NCBI GenBank assembly: GCA_947451935.1
Contig: CANGBH010000010.1
Location: 1-58,181 of the forward strand
Length of the DNA: 58,181 nucleotides
Direction of reading: 5' to 3'
Origin: Chitinophagaceae bacterium
GTDB taxonomy: Bacteria; Bacteroidota; Bacteroidia; Chitinophagales; Chitinophagaceae
Part shown: positions 1 through 32,366 of the stretch, piece by piece
Position numbering within the stretch: position 1 is the stretch's first letter
How the letters are laid out: every line of letters starts with the position of its first letter
The notes under the pieces: model-generated
The model's input: the letters and a program-made list of their open reading frames with translations, nothing else
What the model was told of the DNA's origin: nothing
Databases searched by the model: none
Translations under genes and position numbers: made by a program

Positions 1-783
1 GCAAAAGTAGAAACAGAAAAATATAAAGTCCCATTAAAAAAATACCTCAATAAAGAATTATCCTTAGATAGCACCCTAATGCAATTAAGTGCTTTATACC
101 CATTAGCATCTAAAAATATCAATAAGATCAAAACAAAAATTGAGAAATTTGATATAGAAAAATCATTCAAAAAAGATATTGAAAAATCAGATAATCATAT
201 TATCGTTTGGGGCATTGCGCTGACATCATTACTCTTCATGTTCATCTATTTGTATGTAGAAAAAATTAGAAAACCAACTGCCTATACAGTTGCCAATATG
301 TTCAAAAAACTTCAATTGTTTAGTTCCGCTGCATTTAGCATAGGCCACGGTGGCAACGATGCTCAAAAAGTAATGGGAATCATTGGTGCAGCATTAATAG
401 CGAGTGGAAACATACAAGACTTCGGACAACTCCCTAATTGGGTTCCCGTTGCCTGCTACCTTGCCATCGGAATTGGTACAATGAGTGGAGGCTGGAAAAT
501 TGTAAAAACAATGGGAACGAAGATCACCAAGGTAACTCCATTAGAAGGAGTTGCTGCAGAAACAGCTGGTGCATTTACGTTATTTTTCACTGGCCAAATG
601 GGAATCCCTGTTTCAACAACACATACGATCACAGGATCAATAATAGGCGTAGGCGCTACAAAAAGATTAAGTGCTGTTCGATGGGGAGTAACTTCCTCTC
701 TTATGGTAGCTTGGATTCTAACAATACCTGTTAGTGCTTTACTTGCGGCGTTAATCTATTGGATTACTTCTTTTTTCATGTAA
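1..783 (+). CDS. PiT-family inorganic phosphate transporter, C-terminal part (cut by window start)
   Basis: The reading frame is open from base 1, so the true start lies upstream; the first ATG in view (79) is internal. The visible part carries a charged cytoplasmic linker, then the PiT signature GHGGNDAQKVMG near residue 120 and a second half-repeat VSTTHTITGSIIG near the C-terminus. PiT proteins are inverted-repeat membrane carriers that take up inorganic phosphate with a cation, and these are the two conserved half motifs of the C-terminal domain. Several hydrophobic helices are visible. It converges on nadB. A polyphosphate polymerase lies 5 kb away on the other strand, a possible but unproven functional link. 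Confidence 0.9.
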   Translation, partial: AKVETEKYKVPLKKYLNKELSLDSTLMQLSALYPLASKNINKIKTKIEKFDIEKSFKKDIEKSDNHIIVWGIALTSLLFMFIYLYVEKIRKPTAYTVANMFKKLQLFSSAAFSIGHGGNDAQKVMGIIGAALIASGNIQDFGQLPNWVPVACYLAIGIGTMSGGWKIVKTMGTKITKVTPLEGVAAETAGAFTLFFTGQMGIPVSTTHTITGSIIGVGATKRLSAVRWGVTSSLMVAWILTIPVSALLAALIYWITSFFM

Positions 784-3307: not shown

Positions 3308-4159
3308 CTAATGAATTTTTAATGAAATATCAATGGACTCTATATGATGTGTTATGTCGCCAACAGAAATAAAATCTACGCCTGTCTGCGCGAACAACTT
3401 GATGTTTTTTTTATTTATCCCCCCCGAAGCTTCCAATACCTTTTTCTTCTTATTGATTCCCACAATTCGCTTCAGTTTTTCCGGAGTAAAATTATCCAAT
3501 AAAACCCTATCTACCATAGCTTCATTTACCACTTCGCCAAACTCCTTTTCATTTTTCACTTCGACTATGACGGGAATCGATAACTTCTCTTTTTTGATAT
3601 ATGCTTTAGATCGCTTAAGTGCTTCTTTAATCCCACCTGCTGCTGCAATATGATTGTCTTTGATAAGTATCGCATCATACAAACCCATCCTATGGTTAAC
3701 CCCACCGCCAATACGCACAGCCCATTTTTCCAAAAGCCTATTATTGGGAGTAGTTTTCCGGGTATCAAGCAGCTTGGCACCAAAAGGAGCAATGATTTTA
3801 ACCAGATTATTTGTCTTGGTTGCTATCCCGCTCATCCGCTGCATACAATTGAGAATTAAGCGCTCGGCCTTCAAAATACTTATTGTTGAACCTTCTAATT
3901 TACCAATGGTTTTATGAGCAGCAACACGATCTCCGTCTTTTACCGAAAAAGAACATACTATAGATGGATCAACTATCTGGGAGATTAACTGAGCCAATTC
4001 TACACCGGCAATTATGCAAGGCTCTTTAACAAGTATAATACCAATAGAACGTTGACGAGGATGAATTGTTGCTAATGAAGTAATATCACCACCACCAACA
4101 TCTTCCTTTAGGGCACGTTTTATGACTTTGCCAATGATCTGTAGTTCTTTCTTATCCAT
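3308..4159 (-). CDS. nadC: Nicotinate-nucleotide pyrophosphorylase (carboxylating)
   Basis: Quinolinate phosphoribosyltransferase: it makes nicotinate mononucleotide from quinolinate and PRPP, the third step of de novo NAD synthesis. The visible signatures are EDVGGGDIT (residues 15-23), DTRKTTPNNR, GGGVNHRMGLYDAILIKDNH and the C-terminal EASGGI plus VDFISVGDITHH barrel strands. At 283 aa it is full length. It follows the DUF2490 gene by 18 bp and precedes nadA by 3 bp, so it may be read from a promoter upstream of the polyphosphate polymerase gene. No separate promoter is visible in the short gap. Confidence 0.96.
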   Translation of the reverse strand: MDKKELQIIGKVIKRALKEDVGGGDITSLATIHPRQRSIGIILVKEPCIIAGVELAQLISQIVDPSIVCSFSVKDGDRVAAHKTIGKLEGSTISILKAERLILNCMQRMSGIATKTNNLVKIIAPFGAKLLDTRKTTPNNRLLEKWAVRIGGGVNHRMGLYDAILIKDNHIAAAGGIKEALKRSKAYIKKEKLSIPVIVEVKNEKEFGEVVNEAMVDRVLLDNFTPEKLKRIVGINKKKKVLEASGGINKKNIKLFAQTGVDFISVGDITHHIESIDISLKIH

Positions 4160-6350: not shown

Positions 6351-9300
6351 CTAGTTCTCAAACTTAAGGTCAAGTCCTAATCCGCGTAACTCATGTACAA
6401 GTACATTAAAGGATTCAGGAATACCTGCTTTTGGTACATTATCGCCCTTCACAATCGCTTCGTAGGTCTTCGCTCTACCGATGATGTCATCAGACTTCAA
6501 CGTTAGCAATTCCTGAAGGATATTAGAAGCACCATACGCCTCAAGAGCCCATACTTCCATCTCACCAAAACGCTGACCACCAAATTGAGCTTTACCACCC
6601 AACGGTTGTTGAGTAATGAGACTATATGGTCCGATTGAACGAGCATGCATTTTATCATCCACCATGTGGTGTAGTTTCAACATATAGATGATACCCACTG
6701 TAGCCTTCTGATGGAAACGATCTCCTGTTTCTCCATCATACAAGTAAGTATGACCAAAACTTGGAAGACCTGCTTGATCAATAAGTCCTTTGATTTCATC
6801 TACTGTAGCACCATCAAATATTGGTGTAGAGAATCTCAATCCAAGTTTTTCACCAGCCCATCCTAAGATAGTTTCATAGATCTGACCAAGGTTCATCCTT
6901 GAAGGTACCCCTAGTGGATTCAATACGATATCTACTGGAGTGCCGTCTTCTAAGAACGGCATATCTTCTGCACGTACAATTTTAGCTACGATACCTTTGT
7001 TTCCGTGACGTCCTGCCATCTTATCACCCACTTTCAGCTTACGCTTAACAGCAAGGTATACTTTAGCTAGTTTTAGTACGCCAGCAGGTAATTCATCACC
7101 AATAGAGATATTGAACTTCTCACGTTTGTATCGACCTAACTCTTCATTATACTTGATGTTGTAGTTGTGAAGAAGGGTATTGATCGCTTGATCAATATCT
7201 GCATCACCAGTCCAACCCAGTGGATTAATATTTTGATAATCGATTCCAGTCAACGCTTTAGCATTGAACTTAGCACCTTTACCAATTATTACTTCACCAA
7301 AATTATTAGAAACACCAGAAGATGATTTGTCTTTTAGTAATGTCTGAAGTTTACCAACAAGCAATTCCAAAAGATCTTTCTCATTTTGAACATGGAGTGC
7401 TTCCAATTTTTCAATGGCTGCTTTTTCCTTTGTTTTTGAGTTCTTATCTTTTTTAGCACGTTGGAAAAGTTTCTTTCCAATAACTACACCTTCTGTTCCA
7501 CTTGGCGCCTTCAATGAAGCATCTTTCGCGTCTCCCGCTTTGTCACCAAAGATGGCACGAAGAAGTTTTTCTTCAGGTGTTGGATCGCTCTCCCCTTTAG
7601 GTGTAATCTTACCGATCAAAATGTCGCCTTCTTTAACCTGTGCACCAATACGAATGATACCATACTGATCAAGGTCTTTTGTAGCCTCTTCTGATACGTT
7701 TGGAATATCTGGAGTAAGTTCTTCTTCACCCAATTTTGTATCCCTAACTTCTAGTTCGAATTCAGAAATATGGATTGAAGTAAACAGATCTTCGCTTACT
7801 ACTTTTTCATTGATTACAATCGCATCCTCGAAGTTGTACCCTTTCCATGGCATGAATACCACTTTCAAGTTTCTTCCTAATGCAAGTTCCCCATTCTTAA
7901 CCGCATAACCTTCTGTAAGGAAATCGCCATTTTTAACACGTTGTCCTTTTGCTACAGCTGGTCTTAATGTGATTGACGTTTCTTGGTTTGTTTTGATGAA
8001 CTTAGTCAGCTTGTACACTTTTAAATCATCTTCAAAACTCACCAACTTCATTGCTTCATCACGCTCATAACGAACATGAATTTCATTTGCATCTACAAAC
8101 TCAACAACGCCTTCACCTTCAGAGTGCAACTGAATTCTAGCATCACGGGCAGCTTTTGCTTCAAGACCTGTTCCTACAATTGGAGCCTGTGGCTTAATCA
8201 ACGGAACAGCTTGACGTTGCATGTTTGATCCCATCAACGCACGGTTAGCATCATCATGCTCAAGGAAAGGAATTAGGGATGCACTCAAACCAACAATCTG
8301 GTTTGGCGCAACGTCCATGTACTCTACTTCATTTGGTTCAAGTATAGGGAAGTCACCTGTTTGCCTTGCCTTAATTTTATCTTCAGAAAATTCATGTTTA
8401 TCCGTCAATGGAACGTTAGCCTGTGCAATCTTTGCCGTATCCTCTTCTTCTGCACTCAAGTACGTTAATTTCTTAACCTCTACTTTACCATTAGTCACCT
8501 TACGGTATGGAGTTTCAATGAATCCCATTTCATTAATCTTTGCGTGAACGCAAAGAGTAGAAATCAATCCAATGTTTGGACCTTCCGGAGTTTCAATGGT
8601 ACAAAGACGACCATAGTGCGAATAGTGTACGTCACGAACCTCAAATCCAGCACGCTCTCTACTCAAACCACCTGGGCCGAGTGCGGAGATACGACGCTTA
8701 TGCGTGATCTCACTCAGTGGGTTTGTTTGGTCAAGGAACTGTGATAACTGAGATGTACCAAAGAATGAATTGATTACAGAAGATAATGTACGTGCATTAA
8801 TCAAATCAACAGGAGTAAATACTTCATTATCGCGAACGTTCATACGCTCACGAATGGTTCTTGCCATCCTAGCCAATCCGACACCGAATTGAGCATAAAG
8901 TTGCTCCCCTACAGTACGTACACGTCTATTGCTCAAGTGATCAATATCATCAATCTCAGCCTTACCATTGGTCAAACGAACAAGGTATTTGATGATCTCA
9001 ATGATATCTTCTTTAGTTAATGTTTTTTGATTCAATGCATAGTTAAGATTTAGCTTCTTGTTGATCTTGTAACGACCAACTTCACCTAAATCATAACGCT
9101 TATCACTGAAGAACAACTTATCGATAATGCCACGTGCAGTTTCATTATCTGGCGCATCAGCACCACGAAGTTGTTTGTAGATATGTTGAACCGCTTCCAA
9201 CTCAGAGTTAGAAGTATCTTTATTCAAGGTATTGTAGATGATTGCATAGTCACCACTTACTTCTTCCTTTTGGATGAATACACTCTTCACTTCAGCTTCA

Positions 9301-17879: not shown

Positions 17880-17945
17880 AAAAAAAGTAGTCATAAAGTT
17901 ATGAAACCTAATGACTACTCACGTATATTTAATTAAACCGGTCGA

Positions 17946-18143
17946 CTACGACTCTATCTCTCCGGTAAAAATCTTCTGCTTATAAATTGCTTTCAACACC
18001 TCACCCCTACGTCTGATTGAAGGTTTGATGAACGCTTGACGCTCACGAAGCTGAAGAAGAATCTTAGCTTTCTCAAACTTTTTCTTGTACTTCTTAAGGG
18101 CTTTGTCGATGTTTTCGCAATCTTTAGAATCGATAATTAACAT
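17946..18143 (-). CDS. rpsU: 30S ribosomal protein S21 (bS21)
   Basis: 65 aa, starting MLIIDSKDCENIDKALKKYKKKFEK, a small, very basic protein of the 30S platform near the anti-Shine-Dalgarno. The frame is open 15 codons further upstream to 18188, but the -7 promoter box at 18167-18174 falls inside that extension, so translation must start at 18143. It is divergent from the riboflavin synthase gene and followed by xerC. Confidence 0.95.
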   Translation of the reverse strand: MLIIDSKDCENIDKALKKYKKKFEKAKILLQLRERQAFIKPSIRRRGEVLKAIYKQKIFTGEIES

Positions 18144-18166
18144 ATTTTTCCTCGTTTTTGGGACTG

Positions 18167-18174
18167 CAAAGATA
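18167..18174 (-). promoter_or_regulatory. rpsU promoter, -7 box TATCTTTG
   Basis: Exact TAnnTTTG match followed by C, 24 bp before the rpsU ATG, giving a leader of about 18 nt. It decides the rpsU start. Confidence 0.7.
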
Positions 18175-18247
18175 ATATTTTGATTCATTTTTCCAAAAGG
18201 AATCTGAAATTCATTTACAAGTCAGAACTTTACCTCAAATTCAGCTC

Positions 18248-18823
18248 ATGTTTACAGGTATTATAGAGGCCATTGGAACCATCAAACGCACTGAAATCGA
18301 GGGTTCTAACATGCACTTTTGGGTGGAAGCTCCTTTTTTCAATGAATTAAAAATTGATCAAAGTGTTGCCCATGATGGGGTTTGCTTAACCATCGACGCT
18401 ATGGAATCCCCTCTTTACAGGGTTACCGCGATCAAAGAAACCCTAAGCAAGACCAACCTTGGAAACTGGACAATTGGCAAAAAAGTAAACTTGGAGCGGG
18501 CCATGATTCTAGGATCGAGGTTGGATGGACACCTAGTGCAAGGACATGTGGATTGCACCGGCAGATGCGTTGGGGTTGAAGTAGAACAAGGAAGTTGGAA
18601 ATACACTTTTGAATATCCTGAGCAATTCAAAAGATTGATTATTGAAAAAGGATCAATCTGCGTAAATGGAACTAGCCTGACGGCATTTGATTTAAAAGAC
18701 AATACGTTCTCAGTAGCGATTATACCCTACACGTATAACAATACGAATATCAATGAGTTAGAAGAGAATAATGCAGTGAATTTGGAATTTGACTTGGTGG
18801 GGAAGTATGTAAATAAGACTTAA
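18248..18823 (+). CDS. ribE: Riboflavin synthase, alpha subunit
   Basis: 191 aa. It dismutates two 6,7-dimethyl-8-ribityllumazine molecules to riboflavin. The two homologous lumazine-binding barrels are visible: MFTGIIEAIGTI with NMHFWVEAPF, HDGVCLTID and TLSKTNLGNW in the first; GSRLDGHLVQGHVDCTG, KGSICVNGTSLTAF and NTFSVAIIPYT in the second. The length is slightly below the usual 200-215 aa but all motifs are present. No other rib genes are near. Its stop shares the bases TTAA with the stop of the convergent lasso precursor gene. Confidence 0.96.
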   Translation: MFTGIIEAIGTIKRTEIEGSNMHFWVEAPFFNELKIDQSVAHDGVCLTIDAMESPLYRVTAIKETLSKTNLGNWTIGKKVNLERAMILGSRLDGHLVQGHVDCTGRCVGVEVEQGSWKYTFEYPEQFKRLIIEKGSICVNGTSLTAFDLKDNTFSVAIIPYTYNNTNINELEENNAVNLEFDLVGKYVNKT

Positions 18824-18954
18824 GAAGTTGGAATACCGCCCTCACAACCGCTGTCTAAATCGATGTACCCACCTTGCTTACTAGAATCACAGCCATAAGT
18901 ATTATTCACAGGTAGAATTTCAACTTCGGGAGTTATCCATTCTTTTTTGTCCAT
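18820..18954 (-). CDS. Lasso-type RiPP precursor peptide (44 aa)
   Basis: A 45-codon frame starting 11 bp after the cyclase stop, on the same strand. The leader (residues 1-20) opens MDKKEWITPEVEIL, with the W-x-x-P form of the Y/W-x-x-P leader motif read by B1 recognition proteins, and ends NNTY, so Thr19 takes the penultimate position conserved in lasso leaders. The predicted core is residues 21-44: Gly at core 1, Cys at 2 and 17, Asp at 3, 12 and 14, Glu at 18, and C-terminal PTS. A free C-terminal Ser fits phosphorylation by the cluster kinase. Odd point: core positions 7-9 are Gln-Gly-Gly, so the usual ring-closing Asp/Glu is missing. The gene could be an active precursor with a new ring type or a decayed one. 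The leader and location are seen directly; the processing is inferred. Confidence 0.82.
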   Translation of the reverse strand: MDKKEWITPEVEILPVNNTYGCDSSKQGGYIDLDSGCEGGIPTS

Positions 18955-18965
18955 ATTATTATTCT

Positions 18966-20918
18966 TTATACGTCGGTAAAACTAGGTAACTTTTTTTGTT
19001 TTAGCCAATTTAAAAGTGAAATATTTTTCATTAAAACATTACAAATCATTATTTTTTCGATGATATCATCATTTTTTGTTAATTCATTGATAGTTTTTTT
19101 TATTTTATCCATGTCAACCAAAGGAATAAATTCACTTTTTAACTTAAGATTTTCAATTAAGTTAACAAAGGCAGTATCTTTATTCAAGCGATGACTTATG
19201 TCGTATGATTGGGGAAATAGACCTTTGTAATTCAAAATTTCATCTGAAATCAATCCTTGCATCATATTTCTTACTGCGTATTTTCTAACTCCCTGTCTAA
19301 AATACAATCTTTCACCAATCGAGAAAGTGAATTCTAAAAATCGAATATCAACAGTCGGATCTACAACCACGACTCTATTATATTGACTTTCCTTAAACCA
19401 TTTCATACCAAGCATTGGTGCGATGGTATAAATTAATTTTTTTCTTACCTTTTCTGAATTCGTTGAGACATTAAATCCTGGAACGACAAACATGTATCTT
19501 CTTTCTTTAAACCAATTAATCCTTTTTCCTAGATACCTATTCAGGATTGACTCTTTTAAAAAAACATCTCCATAAAATGGATTTATATTCTTAAAAAAAC
19601 TAATGCATCTCTTAATAAATGGCTTAATAAGTTCACTTTTAAACACATTTAAATACCCAAGATTGCGAACTCTTTTTAATGCCAATATTTCTGAAATGAA
19701 CTGAGAAAATCTTAAACGCGTGAACAAATACAATAAATAGTTTGGAGCATCCCATGATAAGGTAAAATTACCCATCTGACCATTCATGATTGTTTTAACA
19801 CCATCATACCTAGCCTTATTCAAAATGCCGTCAATCCAAAATGTATTATTTGTTACAACTGGAAATAACAAGTCTGAAGTTTTATCGGATGATAAAATAT
19901 CGCCAAATGATGTATCAGCAAATGAGAGAAACTGAGGTTTGATATTAGGCCTTGAATAAAGTTGTCGTTCTAAAAAAAATTGCTCACTGACACGTTCGTG
20001 TTTTTCTTTTGGTATCTCATGGAGAAATGCAGGACAAGATGTGTAAGAGTATAAATTTAATTGTCGTGTATTCAATTCCTCAGAAGCAAAATAAGCAACA
20101 GTATTCGAATCAATGCCACTGCTCAGAAAAATACCCGTTTTTTCAGAAGATCTTAATCTAGTATGTATAGCTCTTGAAAGTATAATACGAAATTCTTGTA
20201 TAGCATCATCGTCATGATTAAACTTAATCTTTTGTTGTTCAGTAAGTTCCCAATAGGTGTGGAGAGTTTTTTTAAGAGGTTGTTCTATTTTCATAAAACA
20301 GCCAGCATTGAGATATAAAATTTCTTTAACTAAAGTCGTACTAGGTCTCAATCTCAATCCAGGAATAAAAAGTCGTTGCAGTTGCGAAAGATCAGTTTGA
20401 AAATCTGCCTTGAGAATTTTTTTAAACAAATTACCATCAGAAGCAAAATAAAGTTCATCCCCAATTTGTGTATAATACAATGCAGAATAACCTAGTTTAT
20501 CTTTTGCAAAAAATAATCCATTTAATATTGAATCGTAAAGCGCAAACGCCCAATCACCTTCAATATGATGCACACACTGATCTTTCCATTTTTGGTAGGC
20601 TAGCATCACCAATTGAGAATCAGGTGTTTGGTCTAATTCCGATTGTGTGAGCCCAAGTTTATCGCCCAACTCATCGCGATAATCCAACCGAAAATGTCCC
20701 ACCAATATATATCGACCACATGCACTCCGAAGAGGCTGTTGATCATACTTCGCTTCAGGCGATACGCGAAGCATCAAATGCCCCATTGCTATCTTTTTCT
20801 CTACGTGGGTCTCTAAGCCATCAAACCCTTCACGCTCGGTAGCCTTGCGCATTTGCTCAAATGCGTCTAGATCAACCGATCCGCCCTGGGGCCTGAAAAT
20901 GCCGAAGAATCCGCTCAT
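18966..20918 (-). CDS. Lasso peptide cyclase (asparagine-synthetase-like, C protein)
   Basis: 650 aa. The N-terminus (MSGFFGIFRPQGG) is a class II glutaminase-like domain whose nucleophilic Cys2 is replaced by Ser, so it cannot release ammonia from glutamine. HIEGDWAFALYD and YSALYYT keep the fold. The synthetase domain has the ATP-binding LSSGIDS (residues 265-271) in place of LSGGxDS. Lasso cyclases adenylate an acidic side chain of the core and join it to the core N-terminus. It starts 85 bp-odd downstream of a -7 box (21008-21015) and is followed at once by the precursor gene. The C-terminal 150 residues are rich in Lys/Asn. The match is to lasso cyclases rather than AsnB because of the missing Cys2 and the B1/B2 neighbours. 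Confidence 0.9.
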   Translation of the reverse strand: MSGFFGIFRPQGGSVDLDAFEQMRKATEREGFDGLETHVEKKIAMGHLMLRVSPEAKYDQQPLRSACGRYILVGHFRLDYRDELGDKLGLTQSELDQTPDSQLVMLAYQKWKDQCVHHIEGDWAFALYDSILNGLFFAKDKLGYSALYYTQIGDELYFASDGNLFKKILKADFQTDLSQLQRLFIPGLRLRPSTTLVKEILYLNAGCFMKIEQPLKKTLHTYWELTEQQKIKFNHDDDAIQEFRIILSRAIHTRLRSSEKTGIFLSSGIDSNTVAYFASEELNTRQLNLYSYTSCPAFLHEIPKEKHERVSEQFFLERQLYSRPNIKPQFLSFADTSFGDILSSDKTSDLLFPVVTNNTFWIDGILNKARYDGVKTIMNGQMGNFTLSWDAPNYLLYLFTRLRFSQFISEILALKRVRNLGYLNVFKSELIKPFIKRCISFFKNINPFYGDVFLKESILNRYLGKRINWFKERRYMFVVPGFNVSTNSEKVRKKLIYTIAPMLGMKWFKESQYNRVVVVDPTVDIRFLEFTFSIGERLYFRQGVRKYAVRNMMQGLISDEILNYKGLFPQSYDISHRLNKDTAFVNLIENLKLKSEFIPLVDMDKIKKTINELTKNDDIIEKIMICNVLMKNISLLNWLKQKKLPSFTDV

Positions 20919-21007
20919 AAAGAGATGTTAGACGTTAGATGTAAGATGTTAGTCTCGGGCACGTAAAATGATTTCATTAATAAAAATGCAATTGAAAGGA
21001 TATTTGA

Positions 21008-21015
21008 CAAAGTTA
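21008..21015 (-). promoter_or_regulatory. Promoter of cyclase-precursor unit, -7 box TAACTTTG
   Basis: Exact TAnnTTTG match 90 bp before the cyclase ATG and after the 14-bp repeat array. It indicates that cyclase and precursor form a transcription unit separate from B1-B2. The leader contains the imperfect GATGTTA/GACGTTA repeats at 20933-20951. Confidence 0.6.
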
Positions 21016-21060
21016 TACCGAATTAAGCTTTTCTAATTTGTTAAAAAAATGACACCAAAC

Positions 21061-21125
21061 CCAAGCGTCCAGCGCCAAGCGTCCAGCGTTAAGCCTCCAG
21101 CGTTAAGCGTCCAGCGTTAAGCGTC
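21061..21125. repeat. 14-bp tandem repeat array, copy 1 (unit CGTTAAGCGTCCAG)
   Basis: About 4.6 slightly degenerate copies (variants CGCCAAGCGTCCAG and CGTTAAGCCTCCAG). It touches the stop codon of the B2 gene. The same unit in the same orientation occurs at 24611-24739. The array has no unique spacers and no coding frame. Confidence 0.92.
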
Positions 21126-21537
21126 ACCCGCCAAAACAAACAATCACCGTATAACCCTCCGCGCCTGCCCTTCCTGTAATAATCCGATTACCACAACGCA
21201 CCCATGCATGGGCTTTTAATAAATTCGTTGTGTCTTTGGCTAATCCGAAATACAATGTTGAAGGTAGCCCACGTCGCTTTAACATCATCTTTCCTGTCAA
21301 GGCCTGATCATAGCATTTACTTTGATGTAGAGTATAGCGACTAGCTCGTCGTATAGCCAGCTCAACATGTTGGATACCATCTGAAAAAAGAGGCTCTAGT
21401 GATGTTTCTGCATGCACTTTTCCTATTCGACCTGCTATACGCTTGAACGGCATAATCAATATAGTCAGCTTCATGGCATGTAGCAGCATCCATGCCTCTA
21501 TAAAAAAAATGTAGTCGCTTAATGGCCGCTTTTTCAT
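21124..21537 (-). CDS. Lasso peptide leader protease (B2, transglutaminase-like)
   Basis: 137 aa. The B2 family is a papain/transglutaminase-fold cysteine protease that removes the leader peptide before ring closure. The nucleophile is in SKCYDQALTG (Cys75) and the His in LKAHAWVRCG (His110); the third residue is not obvious, as in many B2 proteins that end GAEGYTVIVCFGG-like. The N-terminal half has a hydrophobic helix pair. It overlaps the B1 gene by 4 bp (ATGA), so the two are translationally coupled. Its stop lies within the 14-bp repeat array. Confidence 0.9.
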   Translation of the reverse strand: MKKRPLSDYIFFIEAWMLLHAMKLTILIMPFKRIAGRIGKVHAETSLEPLFSDGIQHVELAIRRASRYTLHQSKCYDQALTGKMMLKRRGLPSTLYFGLAKDTTNLLKAHAWVRCGNRIITGRAGAEGYTVIVCFGG

Positions 21538-21809
21538 TCTACAACTCGAATGATATTCTTTTCCAACAATTGATCAATCAATTCTCTAGTATCTTTTTCA
21601 CATACGTTTTGCTCTACCTGAAATTCTTCCATCAATTGCTTAATCAGTGAATCAAATGAAATACCTTCTTTCATTTTCTGCCATATGACCGATGCCACAG
21701 AATTTAATCCGAAATAAAAACCCGAAGCCATGTCCAACATCACCACCTCATCCCCGATTTTAGATTGGATGATTTCTGCATTTTGAATATAGGATGGATG
21801 GGTTGACAC
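21534..21809 (-). CDS. PqqD-like RiPP recognition element (lasso B1)
   Basis: 91 aa winged-helix RRE protein. It shows the PqqD pattern: a three-strand beta sheet with GDEVVMLDMASGFYFGLN (the G-x-Y-F-x-L-N turn of the family), VASVIWQKMKEG, then helices DSLIKQLMEEFQV and DTRELIDQLLEKNII. It binds the precursor leader and presents it to B2 and the cyclase. The start is GTG at 21809; no ATG is suitably placed. A -7 box lies 26 bp upstream. It overlaps B2 by 4 bp. Confidence 0.9.
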   Translation of the reverse strand: MSTHPSYIQNAEIIQSKIGDEVVMLDMASGFYFGLNSVASVIWQKMKEGISFDSLIKQLMEEFQVEQNVCEKDTRELIDQLLEKNIIRVVE

Positions 21810-21834
21810 CGATTTTAGAATTAGTTATTACCCT

Positions 21835-21842
21835 CAAATTTA
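21835..21842 (-). promoter_or_regulatory. B1-B2 promoter, -7 box TAAATTTG
   Basis: Exact TAnnTTTG match 26 bp before the GTG start of B1, in the 65-bp gap after the kinase gene. It suggests B1-B2 can be expressed apart from the kinase. Confidence 0.55.
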
Positions 21843-21874
21843 CATGAATAATTGTAAGAGACTCATATCGATTC

Positions 21875-22780
21875 TTACAAATCCCGAACTATTATCTCCG
21901 CTACGGCCGCAATACTGTTTTCATCAGCTGGTCGAGAAATCAACATGGTCTTGGTCGTATTAGCGATTCGACTAAATAGCGTGAAATGTTCTTTTTGCAA
22001 GCCACTAAACCCAATATATTCCCCACGATAGGCATTTCGTTCTAATCGTTGAAAAAGTTCGATACCCTGTATGGCTCGGACACTAACTTCAGTGGCGGAA
22101 GCTTCTTTTTCAATCAACACCACCCGTTTAACTTTCATAGGTGTTCTACTAAATCGGTCATGAAAATAAACACCATACTTTTCTTGATCAGGCCTGATTT
22201 TTCTGTCTTTAGTCCCACCACCAATATCAACTTTAGCATAGGTATCCAACCAATACTTCATCATGGGATATGAACTGTATAGATACAATTCATCATTGGT
22301 TTCACTAATAACAGGCACACATACGTCATCCGAGAATGGAATATATCCCTTGTTGATCATAGCAGCTAACGTGGTTGACTTCCCAGCACCAGACTCGCCC
22401 ATGATCAATACCAATTCGTCTTGATCAATAAAAGCAGAACAATGCAAGGGAATCTGATTTCGCTGATGCAATAACGCAGCAAACGCATTGGACAAACAAA
22501 AGAGTCGGATGCTCTCCCAATCAGCACTATCCAGTGGCTTTATAATTATTCTGCTACCGCTTGATACATAATAGGACGCAATGCCTTTTACATGCAAAAG
22601 ATATTCGCTAGAAGAAATCATAAGATGGGAGGAACGAAAACCTGTCTCTCCCGAAATCGTATCTGGCACATCACCGATCACCAACTCAACATCCGTTACA
22701 CCTGTTTCGTCTATGGGAAATAACTCTGGAAACAACACAGATGATCGAATAGTAAGTCCATATGCCCAATAATAATACAT
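21875..22780 (-). CDS. HPr-kinase-like lasso peptide kinase
   Basis: 301 aa. A nonconserved N-terminal domain is followed by the HPrK catalytic core: IPLHCSAF (His113), the P-loop GESGAGKS (128-135), IPFSDDVCVPV with the catalytic-type Asp pair (151-152), and a late RVVLIEKE strand. There is no N-terminal HPrK regulatory domain, and there is no HPr or PTS gene nearby. Such short kinases in lasso clusters (PadeK/ThcoK type) phosphorylate the C-terminal Ser of the precursor, and the precursor here does end in Ser. The start ATG is 16 nt or so downstream of the predicted transcription start in the palindrome. An alternative role on another small molecule cannot be excluded. Confidence 0.85.
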   Translation of the reverse strand: MYYYWAYGLTIRSSVLFPELFPIDETGVTDVELVIGDVPDTISGETGFRSSHLMISSSEYLLHVKGIASYYVSSGSRIIIKPLDSADWESIRLFCLSNAFAALLHQRNQIPLHCSAFIDQDELVLIMGESGAGKSTTLAAMINKGYIPFSDDVCVPVISETNDELYLYSSYPMMKYWLDTYAKVDIGGGTKDRKIRPDQEKYGVYFHDRFSRTPMKVKRVVLIEKEASATEVSVRAIQGIELFQRLERNAYRGEYIGFSGLQKEHFTLFSRIANTTKTMLISRPADENSIAAVAEIIVRDL

Positions 22781-22816
22781 GCGATTTGAGTATCTTTAAT
22801 CAAAGATACTAATCGC
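22781..22816. promoter_or_regulatory. Palindrome with overlapping divergent promoters (kinase / ABC exporter)
   Basis: The arms AGTATCTTT (22789-22797) and AAAGATACT (22802-22810) are perfect inverted repeats around AATC, and the outer GCGATT (22781-22786) / AATCGC (22811-22816) extends them with a 2-base bulge. Each arm carries a -7 box: TATCTTTG on minus (22801-22808, exact) for the kinase, TATCTTTA on plus (22791-22798, one mismatch) for the exporter. The 50-bp intergenic region is almost all palindrome, so it is a likely operator for a dimeric regulator. Confidence 0.7.
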
Positions 22817-22830
22817 TTTTTCAAGCCCGA

Positions 22831-24609
22831 ATGAATTATATAAATCAATTTAAAAGTTTCCTCGTACAGGCCAAGGCTATGTTTGGCGAGATTCACAAAA
22901 TCGACAAACGGCTTGCTTACCTAAATCTGTTCACCAAGTCAGTCTTAGCCATCACCCCATTGGTCATATTATACCTCACAAAAAGATTAATTGACTTAAT
23001 CTCTAGTGGAAATAGTTCATCACATGAACTCATCTTTATTATTTCATTGTTTGCTGGGACGCAAATCGTCACCACAATCATTAGTCAATTCTCAGATTAT
23101 ACCAGCACGCTATTTCAACAAAAAGTATCCGACAGATTTTCAGTTAGAATAATTCAAAAAGCTTCTCGTGTCGATTATACCTATTTTGAGCAACCGGAAT
23201 TTCACAATACGCTCCATCTTGCCCAACAACAAGCCCTGTATAGAGTCGGACAATTAATGCCTGCCATCAACAGCCTCATATCATCTGGATTATCACTTGT
23301 CTTTTTGATTGTTTTTTTTATTTCGATTAAAGCCTATTTCTTACTAGCTTTTATCCTATTAGCTATTCCAATTAGTGTCAACAAATGGATTCAAGGAAAG
23401 CGTTTAAGCAATCTTGAATTCACCCTAGCCCCAAAAGAACGTGAAGCGAATTATTTTTTCCAAATCCTAACCGGCATTCAATGGGCAAAGGAAAACCGAA
23501 GCTTTCAATTTGGAGAGGCCTTTGGCAATAGGATGAAGGGACTGCGTGAACATATTGCTTCACTAAAAAAGAATATCCAACGCGCTGCCATGGGGAAAAA
23601 CATCCTGTTCGACATACTAGAGATAGTTATGCTGACTGCAGCCATAGGATACTTATCATGGCAAACCATGGCCAAGCTGATGACCCTTGGCGTTTTTGTG
23701 ATTTACCTACAAGGCTTTCAGCGTATGCAGAGCAACTCTAAAAGTTTTTTTCAATCTATACTGCAACTATTTCAATTGAGAATTTTCTTTCAACACCTAT
23801 TCGATTTTTTTGCATTACCCGAAACATCGGACAAAGAAGATTATAAAGAAAATTTTCCTGAAACCATTCAGTCGCTGCAACTACAAAATATCTCCTTCAC
23901 CTATCCCAATGCGAAAGCACCCGTATTGCATGATATCAGTGTGAAAGCAGGGGCAGGACAAATTATCGCCATCGTGGGGGAAAATGGATCAGGAAAAAGC
24001 ACACTCGTTAAATTATTAGCAAAACTATACCGGCTTGATGCTGGAAGATTCGACATCAATGGCATTTCGATTGAAAACATCAAATCAAGTTCTTTCTACG
24101 AACACAGCGCATTTTTTTTCCAAGACTATGAAAAGTATTTTATCGAAGCAGGACAAAATATTCATTTTAACGTAGAAAAAATAAATGATGATGAATCCGC
24201 AACGAAAGCTGCTTCAGAACAATCTGGTGCAAATGAGTTTATTCAAAAACTTTCTGCCGGATATCAAACTAAGCTTGGAAGTGTATTTCAGGGAAGTGAG
24301 CAATTGAGTGGTGGCCAATGGCAAAAGCTTGCCCTAGCAAGAATATTTTACAAAGAGGCAAAACTAGTTGTGCTGGATGAACCGAGTAGTGCACTCGATG
24401 CCTTCTCCGAACTTCGTCTCTATGAAGAAATTAAAAAAAATAATCAAGACAAAATCGTCATCCTTATTTCACATCGATTGTACAACCTCAAACTCGCAGA
24501 TCATATTTATGTTATGGAAGAGGGAAAAATTATAGAAGACGGAACATTCAACACCCTCATCAATCAAGGTGGATTATTTCAGCAGATGTATGAAAAGCAG
24601 AGGATTTGA
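22831..24609 (+). CDS. ABC transporter, ATP-binding/permease (lasso peptide exporter, D protein)
   Basis: 592 aa half-transporter. Residues about 20-310 contain the transmembrane domain (hydrophobic segments such as YLNLFTKSVLAITPLVILYL, and a clear helix pair near residues 150-180). The nucleotide-binding domain has Walker A GENGSGKST (about 382), the signature LSGGQWQKLALAR and Walker B KLVVLDEPSSALD, then ISHRLYNLKLAD. There is no N-terminal C39 peptidase domain, consistent with separate leader removal by B2. It should export the mature peptide and give self-immunity. It is divergent from the kinase gene and followed by the second repeat array. Confidence 0.9.
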   Translation: MNYINQFKSFLVQAKAMFGEIHKIDKRLAYLNLFTKSVLAITPLVILYLTKRLIDLISSGNSSSHELIFIISLFAGTQIVTTIISQFSDYTSTLFQQKVSDRFSVRIIQKASRVDYTYFEQPEFHNTLHLAQQQALYRVGQLMPAINSLISSGLSLVFLIVFFISIKAYFLLAFILLAIPISVNKWIQGKRLSNLEFTLAPKEREANYFFQILTGIQWAKENRSFQFGEAFGNRMKGLREHIASLKKNIQRAAMGKNILFDILEIVMLTAAIGYLSWQTMAKLMTLGVFVIYLQGFQRMQSNSKSFFQSILQLFQLRIFFQHLFDFFALPETSDKEDYKENFPETIQSLQLQNISFTYPNAKAPVLHDISVKAGAGQIIAIVGENGSGKSTLVKLLAKLYRLDAGRFDINGISIENIKSSSFYEHSAFFFQDYEKYFIEAGQNIHFNVEKINDDESATKAASEQSGANEFIQKLSAGYQTKLGSVFQGSEQLSGGQWQKLALARIFYKEAKLVVLDEPSSALDAFSELRLYEEIKKNNQDKIVILISHRLYNLKLADHIYVMEEGKIIEDGTFNTLINQGGLFQQMYEKQRI

Positions 24610-24610
24610 T

Positions 24611-24739
24611 TTAAGCGTTAAGCGTCTAGCGTTAAGCGTCCAGCGTTAAGCGTCCAGCGTTAAGCGTCCAGCGTTAAGCGTCCAGCGTTAAGCGTCCAGC
24701 GTTCAGCGCCAAGCGTCCAGCGTTAAGCGTCTAGCGTTC
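24611..24739. repeat. 14-bp tandem repeat array, copy 2 (unit CGTTAAGCGTCCAG)
   Basis: About nine copies, several perfect, with variants CGTTAAGCGTCTAG and CGTTCAGCGCCAAG. It fills the whole space between the exporter stop and the nucleotidyltransferase stop. Same unit and orientation as 21061-21125, so the two form direct repeats 3.5 kb apart around B2, B1, kinase and exporter. Confidence 0.93.
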
Positions 24740-25919
24740 ACCTCACCACCCTCCTCCACACCATCAAAAACGGCCTCAGTGGGAAATAAAGAAAAAACAA
24801 ATAATTAGGCAGAGGCAATAGTTTCCAATCATTGGGACTAGTCAAATAGGTTAAAATAAGCCCCCAATTCAATAATCCCTTTTTATTTTGTGACAGCCTG
24901 TATTTCAAATGACTCAATCGATTTTCATCATCCGCATTAACTGTATTCATAGATGCCATAGATCTATAAATTGAATCCAGGGCAGTAGTAATTTTGAGGT
25001 TAGTACTTACTCGCTTAATTTCTTCGGGTATTTCGATATTGAATAAATCATTCAAAATAGCAAAACTGATACAAAGATGATCGATGCAATTGAGTTCTTT
25101 GGCACGAGCCAATAATTCACCCCAATTAAAACTAACCTTACTCAAAATATTAGGCAAATCAAACAACCACTTCAATCTAAACCAGGCATGTTCTGTTCCA
25201 TGTGTGCAGAGGTATAAAAAATTATCAACAGGTTGTAATACCGAAATTTCTTCATTCCCAATCTCTTGTTTGGAAAGCATTGAAAAATCCAGTGCAGGAT
25301 CAAATGTGAAACTCCCTAATGGACCACGAATTTTCCAATGCAACTCAATTAAAGGAAGCATTAAACCATGTGATGGTATGAAGGATAAATCGTGATTGGT
25401 TTTTTTGAAATAATTAATCTGCCTGGGAGTTAACGTGCTCCAATCAGGACTTGAAACATACCCCTTACTTTTTAAAAATGCTGCTACTATATCTAAGCCT
25501 GATGCTTCCACCCAAACATCAATATCTAAAGTATGACGCAACGAAATGTCTCCATAATATTGCTCAGCAATTGGAATGCCTTTTAAAAACAACCCATTCA
25601 CTTGATTAGAATGAAGTAACTGTTGTAATGAAATGATCATCTGCTTTGAGGCCAATGACTTGATTACATTATCATCTGCCTGTTGCTTTAATTGCTGTTT
25701 AAGTTTATCAGATATAGAACTCGAGTTTCGAAGATGACTATATACAAGTGGTGCGATACGATGGCGAATCACCAAAGAATTAAACTGTTGCTCATCAATG
25801 CCTTCTAAAAGCAATTTCTCCTTGATAGCGATATCTTTTGCAAGTGGATTTACCTTAGCACAAGTAAGCAATAGCTTAAATTCTGGCGATGAAATTGATA
25901 TGGGCATTTTATCACTCAT
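24738..25919 (-). CDS. Nucleotidyltransferase-fold protein of lasso cluster type
   Basis: 393 aa. The centre has LFLKGIPIAEQYYGDISLR followed by TLDIDVWVE, the G-x-DIDxxV pattern of the uncharacterised nucleotidyltransferase family (PF14907 type), then a SLIELHWKI-like LIELHWKIRGP and a Trp-rich helical C-terminus. Proteins of this family accompany paeninodin-like lasso clusters (PadeN position), but their substrate is not established. It starts 3 bp after the PorU2-like stop, so it may be co-transcribed with the secretion genes rather than with the rest of the cluster. Its stop borders the repeat array. It could also act independently of the peptide. Confidence 0.78.
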   Translation of the reverse strand: MSDKMPISISSPEFKLLLTCAKVNPLAKDIAIKEKLLLEGIDEQQFNSLVIRHRIAPLVYSHLRNSSSISDKLKQQLKQQADDNVIKSLASKQMIISLQQLLHSNQVNGLFLKGIPIAEQYYGDISLRHTLDIDVWVEASGLDIVAAFLKSKGYVSSPDWSTLTPRQINYFKKTNHDLSFIPSHGLMLPLIELHWKIRGPLGSFTFDPALDFSMLSKQEIGNEEISVLQPVDNFLYLCTHGTEHAWFRLKWLFDLPNILSKVSFNWGELLARAKELNCIDHLCISFAILNDLFNIEIPEEIKRVSTNLKITTALDSIYRSMASMNTVNADDENRLSHLKYRLSQNKKGLLNWGLILTYLTSPNDWKLLPLPNYLFFLYFPLRPFLMVWRRVVR

Positions 25920-25922
25920 TAT

Positions 25923-28900
25923 CTATCTCATCAAATACATCTTACCATAGCCACTTTGGAAGTATCGATCTGTATTAAAATTAGTCCCTTTTAATTTTTC
26001 GATTTTTTTACCCCGTATATCCGTAATGACACGATAGAGATATACTCCGTTGGCAAGTGCCTGCCCATATTGATCAGTACCATCCCATTTATAGCTGGTA
26101 ATATTATTTCCAATACGCAAGGGGCCTAATTCAGCCATGGTAATTTCCTTGACAATTTTTCCCGTCATAGTCAGGATTTGAATCCGCAGATTGCTTGGAA
26201 GATCTGCACCAGTAAGGGTAAATACAAACGCCGTAGAACTGGTAAAGGGATTCGGGTAGTTCAATAAATTGGTGATCATCGACTTGTTATAGACTTCAAA
26301 CAACACTCGGTATTCAAATGCACCCGATGCATTATTGCTTCGATCCTTTCCTGTTACAATGAGTTCATATTCTCCATCCTCCGTTAAATACGGTTTGTAA
26401 ATCACTGACGCCGTATTGTCCTTGCCTCCTGGCGTAAGGGTTGATGGAACAAATTGCAGGGTGTCGTTATCAAATTTGATAGAGCGTATTGTGCCATCTG
26501 GGTAGCGAAGTTTGACAGAAAATAAGCTCGTATCATTGAGCGCTAAATAATGACTATCATCTTTAAGCTTGACAAGAATAGTTGGCTTAGGTGATACGAT
26601 GTCTTTATTCAGGATGTGTAATCCATCAAACGTTACATCGAGGTTCGGCGCATAACGATCGGCCTTGACAAAGATGGTTTTATTGAGGTAGTTATTAAAC
26701 AAGTATTGTTCGGGCTGAGCATAGTTGGGGTTAAAATTGACATAGACTGAATTCTCCCCAATCATTTTCTGGCTATCAAACGTATAGTCAACCACTAACG
26801 TATCGCCAAGATTTTTCAAGGGCTTTCGCATACCATCAAACAATACCTTAGTCGTATTCGATGCGTCCGTCATGCTCAAATACAGCTTGACACTATCGAA
26901 AGGAATTGGTGTTATGTTTTTGAAAGCCAAGTTGATTTTCATAGCCTCTCCTACTTCAATGGTATCTTTGATCGGCACTTGGGTAACAGGTGTCAATGCT
27001 CCCTCTGGAAGGGGGAGGTATTTCACTTGCAGATACTTTAATTGCCAAGGGGAATTTCTTACAGAGTCTTTATTGCTGTGATAAATCTTTAAGTAAGGGT
27101 ATGTCTTCGCATCAATAAATGAAATCACCGTATCCTGTTGTTTGGTTGAACTGGAATAAAGCAAGGTTTCATTAAAATTAGCCCCTACCCCATATACATC
27201 ATAAGAAATTTGATCGGCTGATTCCGGCTCCAAAGAATGACCCCTCCAACATAAGCTGTCCCAACGTTGAGCTGGACCAATCATCGGTGTTATTGAATTT
27301 CCTGCATTTTCAGGACTTACAATCTCATGCTTACTAATGAGTATATTCGAAGGATCCGACCCAAATTGTTGGTCGTGAATAATCCATGTACCAGCGGCAT
27401 CCTTAGATGCAGTCATTATGAAAGGAACATTACGATAGAAGGAATCGATTTTATCAAAACCAATTTCTTTAAACCTATGATATAAGGATTTTCCTGCACC
27501 CAATATGCTTGTATCCTGTTTCCATTGGTCAATATATTGATAACTTCCCGAAGCAGCTTCCTTAGACCAATTCATGATGATAATAAAACTAGAATTAGGT
27601 ATTGAATCAAATAAATCCAAAGCAGCCTTCCTGTATTGAAATGAATTAAAGGGATAGTAAAATTGATATGGATTTGTAGCAGCACATGCTGGGATAAATA
27701 AATTACCAAGTGCACCAAAACCTAATGAATTTTTTGCCAAGAGGGGCCTGGATGTGACAGCATCAACAATAATAAACTCAAGTGCACCAAAAGATAGGCC
27801 ACATCCAATTTTGGTCAAAATTTCGAGATTACTACTTACACTATTTTGAAAATGCGGGAAAATTCCAGAAGTTATTTTAAATGTATGCAGCAACTCGTCA
27901 AAAGCAAATTGCCTTGATGAATTAATATTCAAAACAGAATATTGATCTTTTTGGTATTGAAAATAATGCGATTGATTCCAGCCAGGTGCACTTTGAGGCA
28001 AATACACAAATGAACTATTCGACCAACTCAATACAGTGCCTGTATCCGGCACACGGGCTACACGCCAATAATACACCATACTATCCTTAAGTGGAATCAC
28101 TGGATTAAAGTCGATGATTCCTCCAATGGATGTTTGGGTTTGAGTGAGTTTATAGGGAGAGTCAAACAACTCCGTGGTATCCACTTCCACCACAAAATTC
28201 TTTAGTACTTGAAACAACTGACTCGTAGTCGCAGTCAACTTGAAATTGTTAGTATTTACAATAGCAAAGTTAGCCGGGTAGATAGGGCGCACTTTATCTT
28301 CTGCGATAGAAAATAGTTTGGTGATGTTATTATTGGCATGGGTAATCTCTTGAACGATCTCATCGGGATCAACCGTGACAATGATTTTATTTTCCCCACG
28401 CTCTGTACTCGGGTTTATGGGCACAGATAGATCAATGGAGTCTGCGTAATACAAATTTTGATGAAACTTATCGTATAGAACAATAATAGAACCATCAGGC
28501 AGTTCTCGTTTAACTACTAACCGAACGGAATCTTCAATGGCCTTACCCAGGTTATATACTTTTACCTTAAGATCAAATTTCGTATTGGTGATGGTCAATG
28601 GTGTTGGACTAATCTTTACGAATTGATCTTCAATGGCATAGTCAGGCAATGGATGTGGGTAAAGTGTCATGGCAGGATCACCCCCTAATGTAATTTGCTC
28701 TGCTGTCATCACATTATAAAAATCGGTATTCCCTACCGTAGCAATCAATTCATGCATGGTGTTTTTCAACATATCACCAACAGAAGATTGATAATCTTCA
28801 TTGGCCATCCTGCGGTAAAAAATATTCGTGTATAAGTTCAAGTAATTAACAATACCATAATGCGTACTCGCTAAAAATCCAACACTTCCCTTATTTGGGA

Positions 28901-30991: not shown

Positions 30992-32095
30992 TTAATTATT
31001 CTCTCTTCTTATCAAATTTAATTTCAACGAAAAAATATGGCTATATAAAGGATTCGATTGATTAGCTAAGTTTGTGAAGGCATAATCAATCTGAACATTT
31101 CTAATTTTAAATCCAACACCTGCACTAGGTTGATAAATCCACACCTTTTTAGTATTGGTAGAATCGCCATCCTTTAATCCTTGTTGAAAATTATTTATAC
31201 CTATTCTTCCAAAGATAATCTCTTTGAAGCCGAGTTCCATCCCCACTTTAGGGTCAATGCTTGCGGGAGCAGCAGAGATCAACACATTTCGTCTGCCATC
31301 AAACGTAACATCTAAGTTTACCTCTGGCATCAATTTTAAATTATCTGAAATATTTATGTTGTATGAAGCTCCAAGGATTAAACGAGGCGCCGTCAACTCA
31401 GTTGACTTTACTGGAATTTTATTGTTGGTCAAATACAACACTTCTTTTTCACGATCGGTAAAATGAAACTGCCATGCGTTAAATGTGGTTGTCACATCTC
31501 GAGCAACCAGCCCAAAATTAAATTTCTTAGAATGATATGACAATGAAGCGTCTAATCCAAAGCCCCAAGCTTTGGCAAAACTACCTACATTTCGATGGAT
31601 CACTTTAGCATTGGTACCAAATGAAAACGTTTGATCATCATCGCTGTAAATCACTTGAGCATAGGAAAATAAAAAAGCATAATCGGCAGATGAAAACGAA
31701 CGAATGTTATTGTAATTAACCGTTCCATCAGGCTCAACCAAGAAAAGGGTATTGGGGATATCATCTACGGCAAAACGCATTAAAGAAAAACCAATGGTTC
31801 GGGTTCTGATGGTTGGGTCACCTATCGGAATTGCCAATGAAGCATAATCGTACTTGCCAATGCCTGCAAAATATTCTGCATGCATCATGGACAACATCGG
31901 GTAATCTTTCACATCCGTAAGTCCTGCTGGATTCCAATACCCAGCAGTGGCATCTCCCACACTAGATACTTGGGCACCTCCCATAGCTAATCCCCTAGCC
32001 CCTGCTCCAATATTTAAAAATTCATTTGAATATTTCCTGAACTGACTCTTACCATCTAAGAAGAAAAAAACAACCAAAATAAGTATGGCAAGCAT
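30992..32095 (-). CDS. PorV2/PorQ-like type IX secretion outer-membrane protein
   Basis: 367 aa with a short N-terminal signal (LAILILVVFFFLDGKSQ). The mature start FLNIGAGARGLAMGGAQVSSVGD plus GYWNPAGL is the conserved beginning of the PorV/PorQ (UPF0164-like, FadL-type barrel) family. Repeated amphipathic strands follow, ending in HIFSLKLNLI. PorV shuttles sorted proteins to the PorU sortase. It overlaps no gene but is only 2 bp upstream of the PorU2-like gene, which indicates an operon. A near-consensus -7 box TAACTTTA (32230-32237) lies 135 bp upstream. Confidence 0.83.
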   Translation of the reverse strand: MLAILILVVFFFLDGKSQFRKYSNEFLNIGAGARGLAMGGAQVSSVGDATAGYWNPAGLTDVKDYPMLSMMHAEYFAGIGKYDYASLAIPIGDPTIRTRTIGFSLMRFAVDDIPNTLFLVEPDGTVNYNNIRSFSSADYAFLFSYAQVIYSDDDQTFSFGTNAKVIHRNVGSFAKAWGFGLDASLSYHSKKFNFGLVARDVTTTFNAWQFHFTDREKEVLYLTNNKIPVKSTELTAPRLILGASYNINISDNLKLMPEVNLDVTFDGRRNVLISAAPASIDPKVGMELGFKEIIFGRIGINNFQQGLKDGDSTNTKKVWIYQPSAGVGFKIRNVQIDYAFTNLANQSNPLYSHIFSLKLNLIRRENN

Positions 32096-32318
32096 ACGAA
32101 ATTGGGATTCCGATAGACGAATTAAGAGGTGATTCTTCTTGGTTGATGTTGTTCTCAGATGATGTCTGTTTTGCCAAAAAATAAACTCATGCGTTGAGCG
32201 AATGGATAATAGGGGTAAAAATCCCGACGTAAAGTTACATCTTCTCTATGCCTAATATGCCATAAAACGCATAAATTCAATGATTAATAACGCTTTAAGA
32301 GCCTTCATATTGCATGAT

Positions 32319-32350
32319 TTTGCAAGTCAACCCTTTCTGCTTTACTTTTG
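32319..32350 (+). promoter_or_regulatory. tyrS promoter (TTTG, 20 bp, TACTTTTG)
   Basis: The -33 TTTG at 32319-32322 and exact -7 TACTTTTG at 32343-32350 have 20 bp between them, the normal spacing. The ATG at 32367 is 17 bp after the -7 box. An upstream ATG at 32280 in the same frame lies before the promoter and is thus not used. Confidence 0.75.
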
Positions 32351-32366
32351 CTTAAATTATTCTAAA

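Follow-up and report, generated by a model that had tools for sequence, protein, structure and literature searches.

In the stretch of Chitinophagaceae DNA analyzed here (58,181 nucleotides, hereafter the window; contig C10 of the 2.56 Mb genome G000), a lasso-type gene cluster ends in a precursor peptide gene whose predicted core carries a Lys and an Asp (Lys26 and Asp32) belonging to a pair that recurs, at shifting positions and nearly constant spacing, in all 14 distinct precursor cores of the same genus, and it is considered likely (probability of roughly 0.75) that these two residues are joined in the product, by either amine. The narrower proposal that the amine partner is the Lys26 side chain is given slightly less than even odds, and the same tentative grade applies both to a new RiPP class, in which lasso-type B1, B2 and C would build a Lys-Asp side-chain-to-side-chain macrolactam of 7 or 8 residues, and to a product of that class whose free N- and C-terminal arms are clamped by a disulfide.

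Gene Cluster and Precursor Peptide in the Window

B1, B2, a cyclase and a precursor occur together in the window (Table 1), as the initial annotation had it in treating the cluster as lasso-type, with the cyclase being recognized by its Pfam domains and B1 by PF05402. At the gene level, a kinase gene (profile matches below the cut-offs) and a C-terminal Ser on the precursor make up what defines a paeninodin-type phosphopeptide cluster, and the HPr-kinase-like protein is the probable precursor Ser kinase. The roles of this kinase and of the nucleotidyltransferase are assigned after the paeninodin and pseudomycoidin clusters, which comprise a precursor, a cyclase, a leader peptidase and a kinase, with a nucleotidyltransferase in that of pseudomycoidin (PMC9266682), gene content being the only basis for likening the NTP_transf_5 protein to PsmN of pseudomycoidin (PMC9266682). 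Among the eight window proteins scanned, no ATP-grasp ligase, the mark of a graspetide cluster, was found.

Table 1. Features of the cluster, its precursor and its surroundings in the window.
Feature	Position	Strand	Basis or remark
Precursor peptide gene	18820..18954	-	ORF of 44 aa, MDKKEWITPEVEILPVNNTYGCDSSKQGGYIDLDSGCEGGIPTS; final gene of the cluster
Leader, residues 1-20	18895..18954	-	W6xxP9, Thr19 (= W+13); predicted cut after Tyr20
Predicted core, 24 aa	18823..18894	-	GCDSSKQGGYIDLDSGCEGGIPTS, from Gly21
Predicted ring segment K26-QGGYI-D32, 7 residues	18859..18879	-	K-x5/6-D in 14/14 distinct cores
Cys22 (core 2), predicted disulfide partner	18889..18891	-	First core Cys position in relatives
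Cys37 (core 17), predicted disulfide partner	18844..18846	-	Second core Cys position in relatives
C-terminal Ser44, likely phosphorylation site	18823..18825	-	Terminal Ser in 14/14 cores; cluster kinase; paeninodin precedent (PMC9266682)
Lasso-type cyclase C, asparagine-synthetase-like, 650 aa	18966..20918	-	PF13537, PF00733; NF033535 233 bits, cut-off 525
Leader peptidase B2	21124..21537	-	NF033537 87.4 bits, cut-off of 33 passed
Leader-binding B1 (PqqD-like)	21534..21809	-	PF05402 63.3 bits; NF033536 67.9 bits, under cut-off of 80
HPr-kinase-like protein	21875..22780	-	Weak Hpr_kinase_C and HprK_rel_A matches, sub-cut-off
ABC exporter	22831..24609	+	No C39 peptidase domain listed
NTP_transf_5 nucleotidyltransferase	24738..25919	-	PF14907 154.5 bits
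Tandem 14-bp units (AAGCGTCCAGCGTT-like)	21049-21132		Between B2 and the cyclase
Ribosomal protein S21	17946-18188		Adjoins the cluster end
Riboflavin synthase	18248-18823		Adjoins the cluster end
Peptidase_C25 gene	25923-30989		Adjoins the cluster
PorV-like gene	30992-32095		Next to the Peptidase_C25 gene
tyrS (tyrosyl-tRNA synthetase)	32280-33650

The precursor ORF begins 11 bases past the stop of the cyclase gene, and the W-x-x-P leader with Thr at -2 reported in the initial annotation is indeed there. In the available part of PMC10368454, Thr(-2) is described as a recognition residue for leader removal (Ile(-2) occurs too); the Trp of the window leader lies 15 residues ahead of Gly21, which is shorter than in textbook leaders (cf. 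Tyr(-17) in the same part of that source). Counted from the start that Thr(-2) defines, core positions 7-9 read Q-G-G, the acids stand at core positions 3, 12, 14 and 18, and the Cys residues at 2 and 17, so that there is no Asp or Glu at 7-9 and a standard lasso ring of 7-9 residues cannot be closed from Gly21; on all of these counts the initial annotation was correct.

The paeninodin family profile NF033524 (lasso_PadeA_fam) matched residues 3-20 of the window precursor at E 1.7e-4 and 21.3 bits, short of the curated cut-off of 27 and hence of membership in that family; among six other precursors of the clade, it gave 22.5 bits for the one in L063 and no match for five, and neither of the two canonical controls scanned was matched. 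Inspection by eye of the ORFs of at least 25 aa on both strands of positions 17900-26000 showed no second, canonical precursor near the B genes. Riboflavin synthase, which together with ribosomal protein S21 adjoins the cluster end in the window, also flanks the cluster in L033, L054 and L063, which suggests that the cluster occupies a fixed chromosomal site.

Same-Genus Relatives

The cyclase was found at E <= 1e-30 in 17 of the 41 same-genus genomes (the window's included), and the contig covers the cluster end in 14 of these 17 loci, stopping inside the cyclase in the other three. Directly behind the cyclase, each of the 14 readable loci (window included) has an ORF with the W..P pattern and a Thr at W+13, so that the window ORF is a true precursor and no chance ORF. 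When the window proteins were used as queries across the 17 loci, homologues of the kinase and of B1 were present in 17/17 and of B2 in 16 (L067 having a diverged B2-like frame), those of the nucleotidyltransferase in 14/17 and of the ABC exporter in 10/17, several of the stretches ending early; no exporter homologue was found within the stretches of L061-L063.

Two more distinct precursors, those of G217 (on a separate contig, past the end of its cyclase) and G225, came from a search with a profile that was built from 12 cores and spans the core, which biases it to similar cores; the motif described below had been proposed from the 12, and both later ones fit it. L066, L067, G203 and G197 have the same core as L065 and are counted once. 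Excluded as fragmentary or having no cyclase in view were G204 (a piece with KLFVGND) and G214:C240, while the contig end interrupts the cyclase in G228 and G226, neither of which yielded a precursor; of the profile matches above E 0.1, G196 and G212 were followed. The precursor as a tblastn query had no match in the plasmid collection, and scanning the contig collection with the cyclase returned a single locus, L032, on the same contig as L057.

The 20-aa core KNFIQCDGIGVPGEDYACFS is identical in five genomes (L065, L066, L067, L171 and L172), whose core genes differ pairwise at 5-13 of 60 nucleotides, all of the differences being synonymous, and whose leaders differ (those of G203 and G197 being largely the same). 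Such identity despite the nucleotide changes points to a product that is, or recently was, under purifying selection.

Several loci are irregular. Precursors with no cyclase on site occur in L173 (~3457-3606; G225) and L171 (~7242-7394; G203), each beside tyrS, the segment that reaches from the cyclase as far as the PorV-like gene being missing and only the precursor kept; in the window, tyrS stands on the far side of this segment. In G204 (L170, ~7479-7580), the beginning of a PorV-like gene is joined in frame to part of a precursor (leader and KLFVGND) that has lost its C-terminus, a junction resembling the scar of a deletion of that segment. Right behind the B2 gene in L175 (4150-4260; G214:C240) lies a 36-aa ORF, MLQNRIAWAKPLIFQLDISRTSHFKLLYLLDEQGFS, with Thr at W+13 and K-x5-D and no Cys. 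Cyclase and precursor share one reading frame with no stop in between in L062 (4472-6547, minus strand), which is either a natural fusion or an assembly error.

A Lys-Asp Pair That Moves Along the Core

With the core defined from W+15, all 14 distinct cores have a single Lys, two Cys and a terminal Ser, and are preceded by a leader with W, P and Thr at W+13 (the penultimate leader residue, given a cut after W+14) and 1-5 Lys of its own. All 14 contain Lys-x(5,6)-Asp, the Asp being at +6 in 10 and at +7 in 4 (two cores have an Asp at +5 as well), and the ring-like segments are otherwise varied: KQGGYID (window, Lys26 to Asp32), KIYTEGSD, KNGLTVD, KFTAPGSD, KVNGLND, KPNPNSSD, KIAGSVVD, KPHTGVD, KSATNDD, KVEGIID, KIFVGND, KNFIQCD, KAFSNDD and KTNATND. 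The Lys occupies nine core positions (1, 2, 4, 6, 7, 8, 9, 10 and 13) and the Asp of the pair core positions 7, 9, 10, 12, 14, 16 and 20 (r = 0.99 between the two), yet Asp minus Lys is only ever 6 or 7, which indicates that the pair shifts as one unit.

When residues were shuffled within each core, 2.26 of the 14 cores on average had K-x(5,6)-D, and 9 at most over 50,000 rounds; 0 of 20,000 shuffles reached 14 (maximum 11) when the Lys-to-acid spacing was scanned from 1 to 15, and 3 of 2,000 reached 12/12 when any residue pair was allowed in the first 12 cores, with the caveat that these sequences share ancestry, so that shuffles overstate their independence. An acid at core 7-9, on the other hand, is present in 5 of the 14 cores against a shuffle mean of 5.34, i.e., at chance level, which speaks against the scenario, raised by the initial annotation, of relatives with an acid there from the same start and the window copy as a mutated or decayed one.

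As for the ring partners that it had offered, the Asp at core 12 (Asp32) is precisely the acid conserved in the relatives, while a ring closed onto Asp34 (position 7) from a core that begins at Gly28 does not agree with the shared pair, which consists of Lys and an Asp following it by 6 or 7 residues. The alignment of precursors that it had called for brings out Lys26 together with Asp32, Lys having been absent from its options as an amine partner. Its cysteine pair proved to be a family feature, the disulfide being predicted only, and its suggestion that the product belongs to a new class is still live, so that its interpretation overall is partly supported.

Proposed Product and the Choice of Amine

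The sequence constraint, its restriction to one clade among the loci examined and the synteny are direct observations, and from them the chemical steps are inferred as follows. B1 would bind the W-x-x-P leader, B2 would cleave after Tyr20, leaving Thr19 as the penultimate leader residue (going by family rules), and the cyclase would adenylate the side-chain carboxylate of Asp32 (going by fold and motif), which would then be attacked by Lys26, most likely through its epsilon-amine, rather than by the alpha-amine of Gly21. The resulting 7-residue macrolactam, K26-QGGYI-D32, would have an N- and a C-terminal arm joined by a Cys22-Cys37 disulfide; the kinase would phosphorylate Ser44, the nucleotidyltransferase would possibly decorate the product further, and the ABC exporter would release it.

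The main rival, which is deemed unlikely but stands above all the others, makes Lys26 core residue 1: a cut just before the Lys and a bond from its alpha-amine to Asp32 would yield a 7-residue lasso, KQGGYIDLDSGCEGGIPTS, at the price of an unusually long and variable leader that includes Cys22. The spacing itself suits such a product, corresponding to 7- or 8-residue rings, exactly lasso size, in 14/14 cores, and the lasso bond is defined from the alpha-amine of residue 1 (PMC9266682, in the part available), which is a counterpoint to any side-chain amine. That residue 1 is less restricted than had been thought is indicated by the acceptance of Asn1 in metanodin (PMC12670498, in the part available).

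The placement of the cut speaks for the other side, as Thr is constant at W+13 and stands at Lys-2 in just 2 of the 14 cores, which, together with the Cys and His columns retained across 23 aligned B2 sequences, leads one to expect cleavage after W+14; under a Lys-first start, the Lys position, and thus the leader length, would span 12 residues of variation. In the subclade of L065-L067, G203 and G197, Lys is exactly at core 1 and Thr(-2) precedes it, an arrangement that fits the Lys-first start and leaves alpha- and epsilon-amine indistinguishable. The residue preceding the Lys is small in 13 of the 14 (Gly 6, Ala 2, Ser 2, Asn 2, Thr 1; Gln once), which could be a cleavage preference and so counts against the side-chain amine.

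The cysteines point the opposite way. The first core Cys is at core 2-4 in 11/11 cores whose Lys comes at position 6 or beyond; in the remaining three, where Lys is at 1, 2 or 4, it falls within the ring or after it. The second is followed by 1-7 residues to the end in 14/14. The first Cys is thus anchored to the predicted N-terminus and does not track the Lys, which argues for an internal Lys with the arm ahead of it kept, and, given its position in those 11 cores, only with that arm retained would each product have two Cys; a cut before the Lys would discard the conserved Cys at core 2-4 and leave a single one in 11/14 products.

A further point against a Lys-first product is that B2 is the sole peptidase among the eight cluster proteins scanned. 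A Peptidase_C25 gene, however, adjoins the cluster in the window and in 12 of the 16 relatives' stretches, the remaining 4 ending before that point, and its conservation there makes a second cut by this neighbor conceivable; it weakens the argument that there is no second peptidase nearby and, slightly, the case for the side-chain amine. The N-terminus of the C25 protein is signal-peptide-like by eye, i.e., the protein looks exported, from which it probably belongs to secretion and acts outside the cell, after cyclization; together with its PorV-like neighbor, it is presumably a PorU/PorV pair. On balance, the Lys side-chain amine is favored by the constancy of Thr(-2) and by the contrast between a Cys that stays near the N-terminus and a Lys that shifts.

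The Cyclase and Its Proposed Coupling to the Pair

The cyclases of the 14 loci make up one side of a tree branch with a support of 100/100, and the tree repeated with three more outsiders gave an SH-aLRT of 100 (quick method, four long-branch controls left out). This clade is marked by Lys546 (13/14, against Arg in 20/20 controls), Thr293 (Ser in 18/20 controls) and Asn384 (Asp in 16/20 controls). An AlphaFold model (14 sequences) has a mean pLDDT of 80.6, most of residues 1-60 being weak, and its best PDB matches are the hydroxyamidotransferase TsnB9, beta-lactam synthetase and asparagine synthetase; with this predicted AsnB fold and the nucleotide-binding SxGxDS columns invariant in 14/14, the protein has what defines a lasso cyclase, as judged from the model. 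The glutaminase nucleophile of such enzymes is usually a Cys, and position 2 of the window cyclase is Ser, this Cys being missing in most of the control cyclases compared as well.

It is improbable that no Lys-Asp bond is made at all and that the motif is a salt bridge or recognition motif in a linear, disulfide-closed, phosphorylated peptide on which the divergent cyclase acts otherwise. The cyclase is far under the NF033535 cut-off (Table 1), its C-terminal half is divergent and the Lys of WRxDK, seen in many controls, is in no fixed column by eye, all of which would sit well with another activity; the invariant SxGxDS columns, the AsnB-type fold model and a strict spacing that matches lasso ring sizes would not. 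More improbable still is a 12-residue ring closed by the Gly21 alpha-amine onto Asp32, with the Lys serving folding or recognition only, which would preserve the alpha-amine rule and Thr(-2) and use the conserved acid, but would need ring sizes running from 7 to 20 residues over the clade and leaves the tracking of Asp by Lys unexplained.

Controls and Restriction to One Clade

The controls came from lasso-type clusters in further genomes that belong to the family and order of the window, together with L112, a cluster of another kind from the same genus; the loci were supplied mostly by B2 family searches in 394 genomes of the family and 396 of the order, two samples that overlap, and precursor ORFs were chosen by eye among the W/Y..P ORFs close to the B genes. 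Candidates were found in 20 of the 27 control loci (none in L114, L116, L119, L120, L122, L123 and L124), and 20 control precursors from 19 loci were counted, near-copies (L117 and the second copies in L039, L107, L111 and L113) being excluded. In 17/20 controls (all but L115, L039 and L106), a Gly lies at W+13..17 and an acid stands at ring position 7-9, against 2/14 clade cores; among distinct control stretches, the count is 16/19, as L105a and L118 have one common core. Lys-x(5,6)-Asp, in turn, occurs in a single control (1/20), L038, where the Lys is immediately ahead of the Gly of a canonical ring; a C-terminal Ser is present in 16/20. In the controls L106 (13758-13895) and L039 (9405-9569), FNPxGxxD lies near the core start, which would make Phe residue 1 of the ring.

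Searching 395 genomes of the phylum with the clade profile at E <= 1e-70 gave four besides that of the window, one of which (G022) is control L037, and the Lys-Asp motif is absent from the candidate precursors of the three further matches (G861, G927 and G1077); the best-scoring outside cyclase, that of G861, from another class, goes with a candidate core having neither Lys nor Cys. So far, and among the loci examined, the trait thus appears confined to one cyclase clade in one genus of Chitinophagaceae. That the window precursor is a decayed canonical one, or that the pattern is due to chance and shared ancestry, is very improbable: the relatives are all of one genus and many are draft genomes of many contigs, but the motif is in 14/14 cores against 1/20 controls, kinase, B1, cyclase and precursor stay together in related loci, and one core has changed only synonymously across five genomes.

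Relation to Known Systems and Significance

With paeninodin and pseudomycoidin, the cluster shares its gene content, a W/YxxP leader, Thr at the predicted -2 and a C-terminal Ser (PMC9266682), and its presumed ring partners are likewise spaced by 7-8 residues; it differs from them in lacking an acid at 7-9 when positions are counted from the start that Thr sets, in having one Lys and two Cys per core, and Lys, usually internal, as the presumed amine partner. In the portion of PMC12670498 available, metanodin likewise has an unusual residue at ring position 1, where Gly/Ala/Ser/Cys are the rule, and its Thr is two residues ahead of the ring residue Asn1, whereas the Thr-to-Lys distance varies here. 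Likely paired cysteines recall the lasso peptides of classes I, III and IV with disulfides, which, unlike the products proposed here, retain the alpha-amine ring at 7-9 (PMC9266682, in the part available).

A different parallel, if the proposal is true, is offered by graspetides, cross-linked peptides made by ATP-grasp enzymes and having Lys side-chain amide links. The bond between the side chains of Lys and Asp would be of the same kind, the differences here being an asparagine-synthetase-like enzyme instead of an ATP-grasp one, a lasso leader and B1/B2. Among open-licence PMC titles and abstract starts, no report was found of a lasso cyclase using Lys or a side-chain amine, or of this clade.

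A published mining rule asks for a core that begins with Gly and has Asp at position 8 or 9 (PMC7533575, in the part available), and mining by it would miss these precursors. The fourteen natural substrates with their shifted rings make the proposed rule directly testable. Should the Lys side chain prove to be the partner, a lasso cyclase could set its ring anywhere in the peptide, independently of where the leader is cleaved; it would then be a useful ligase, and nature would have a second way of making Lys-Asp stapled peptides.
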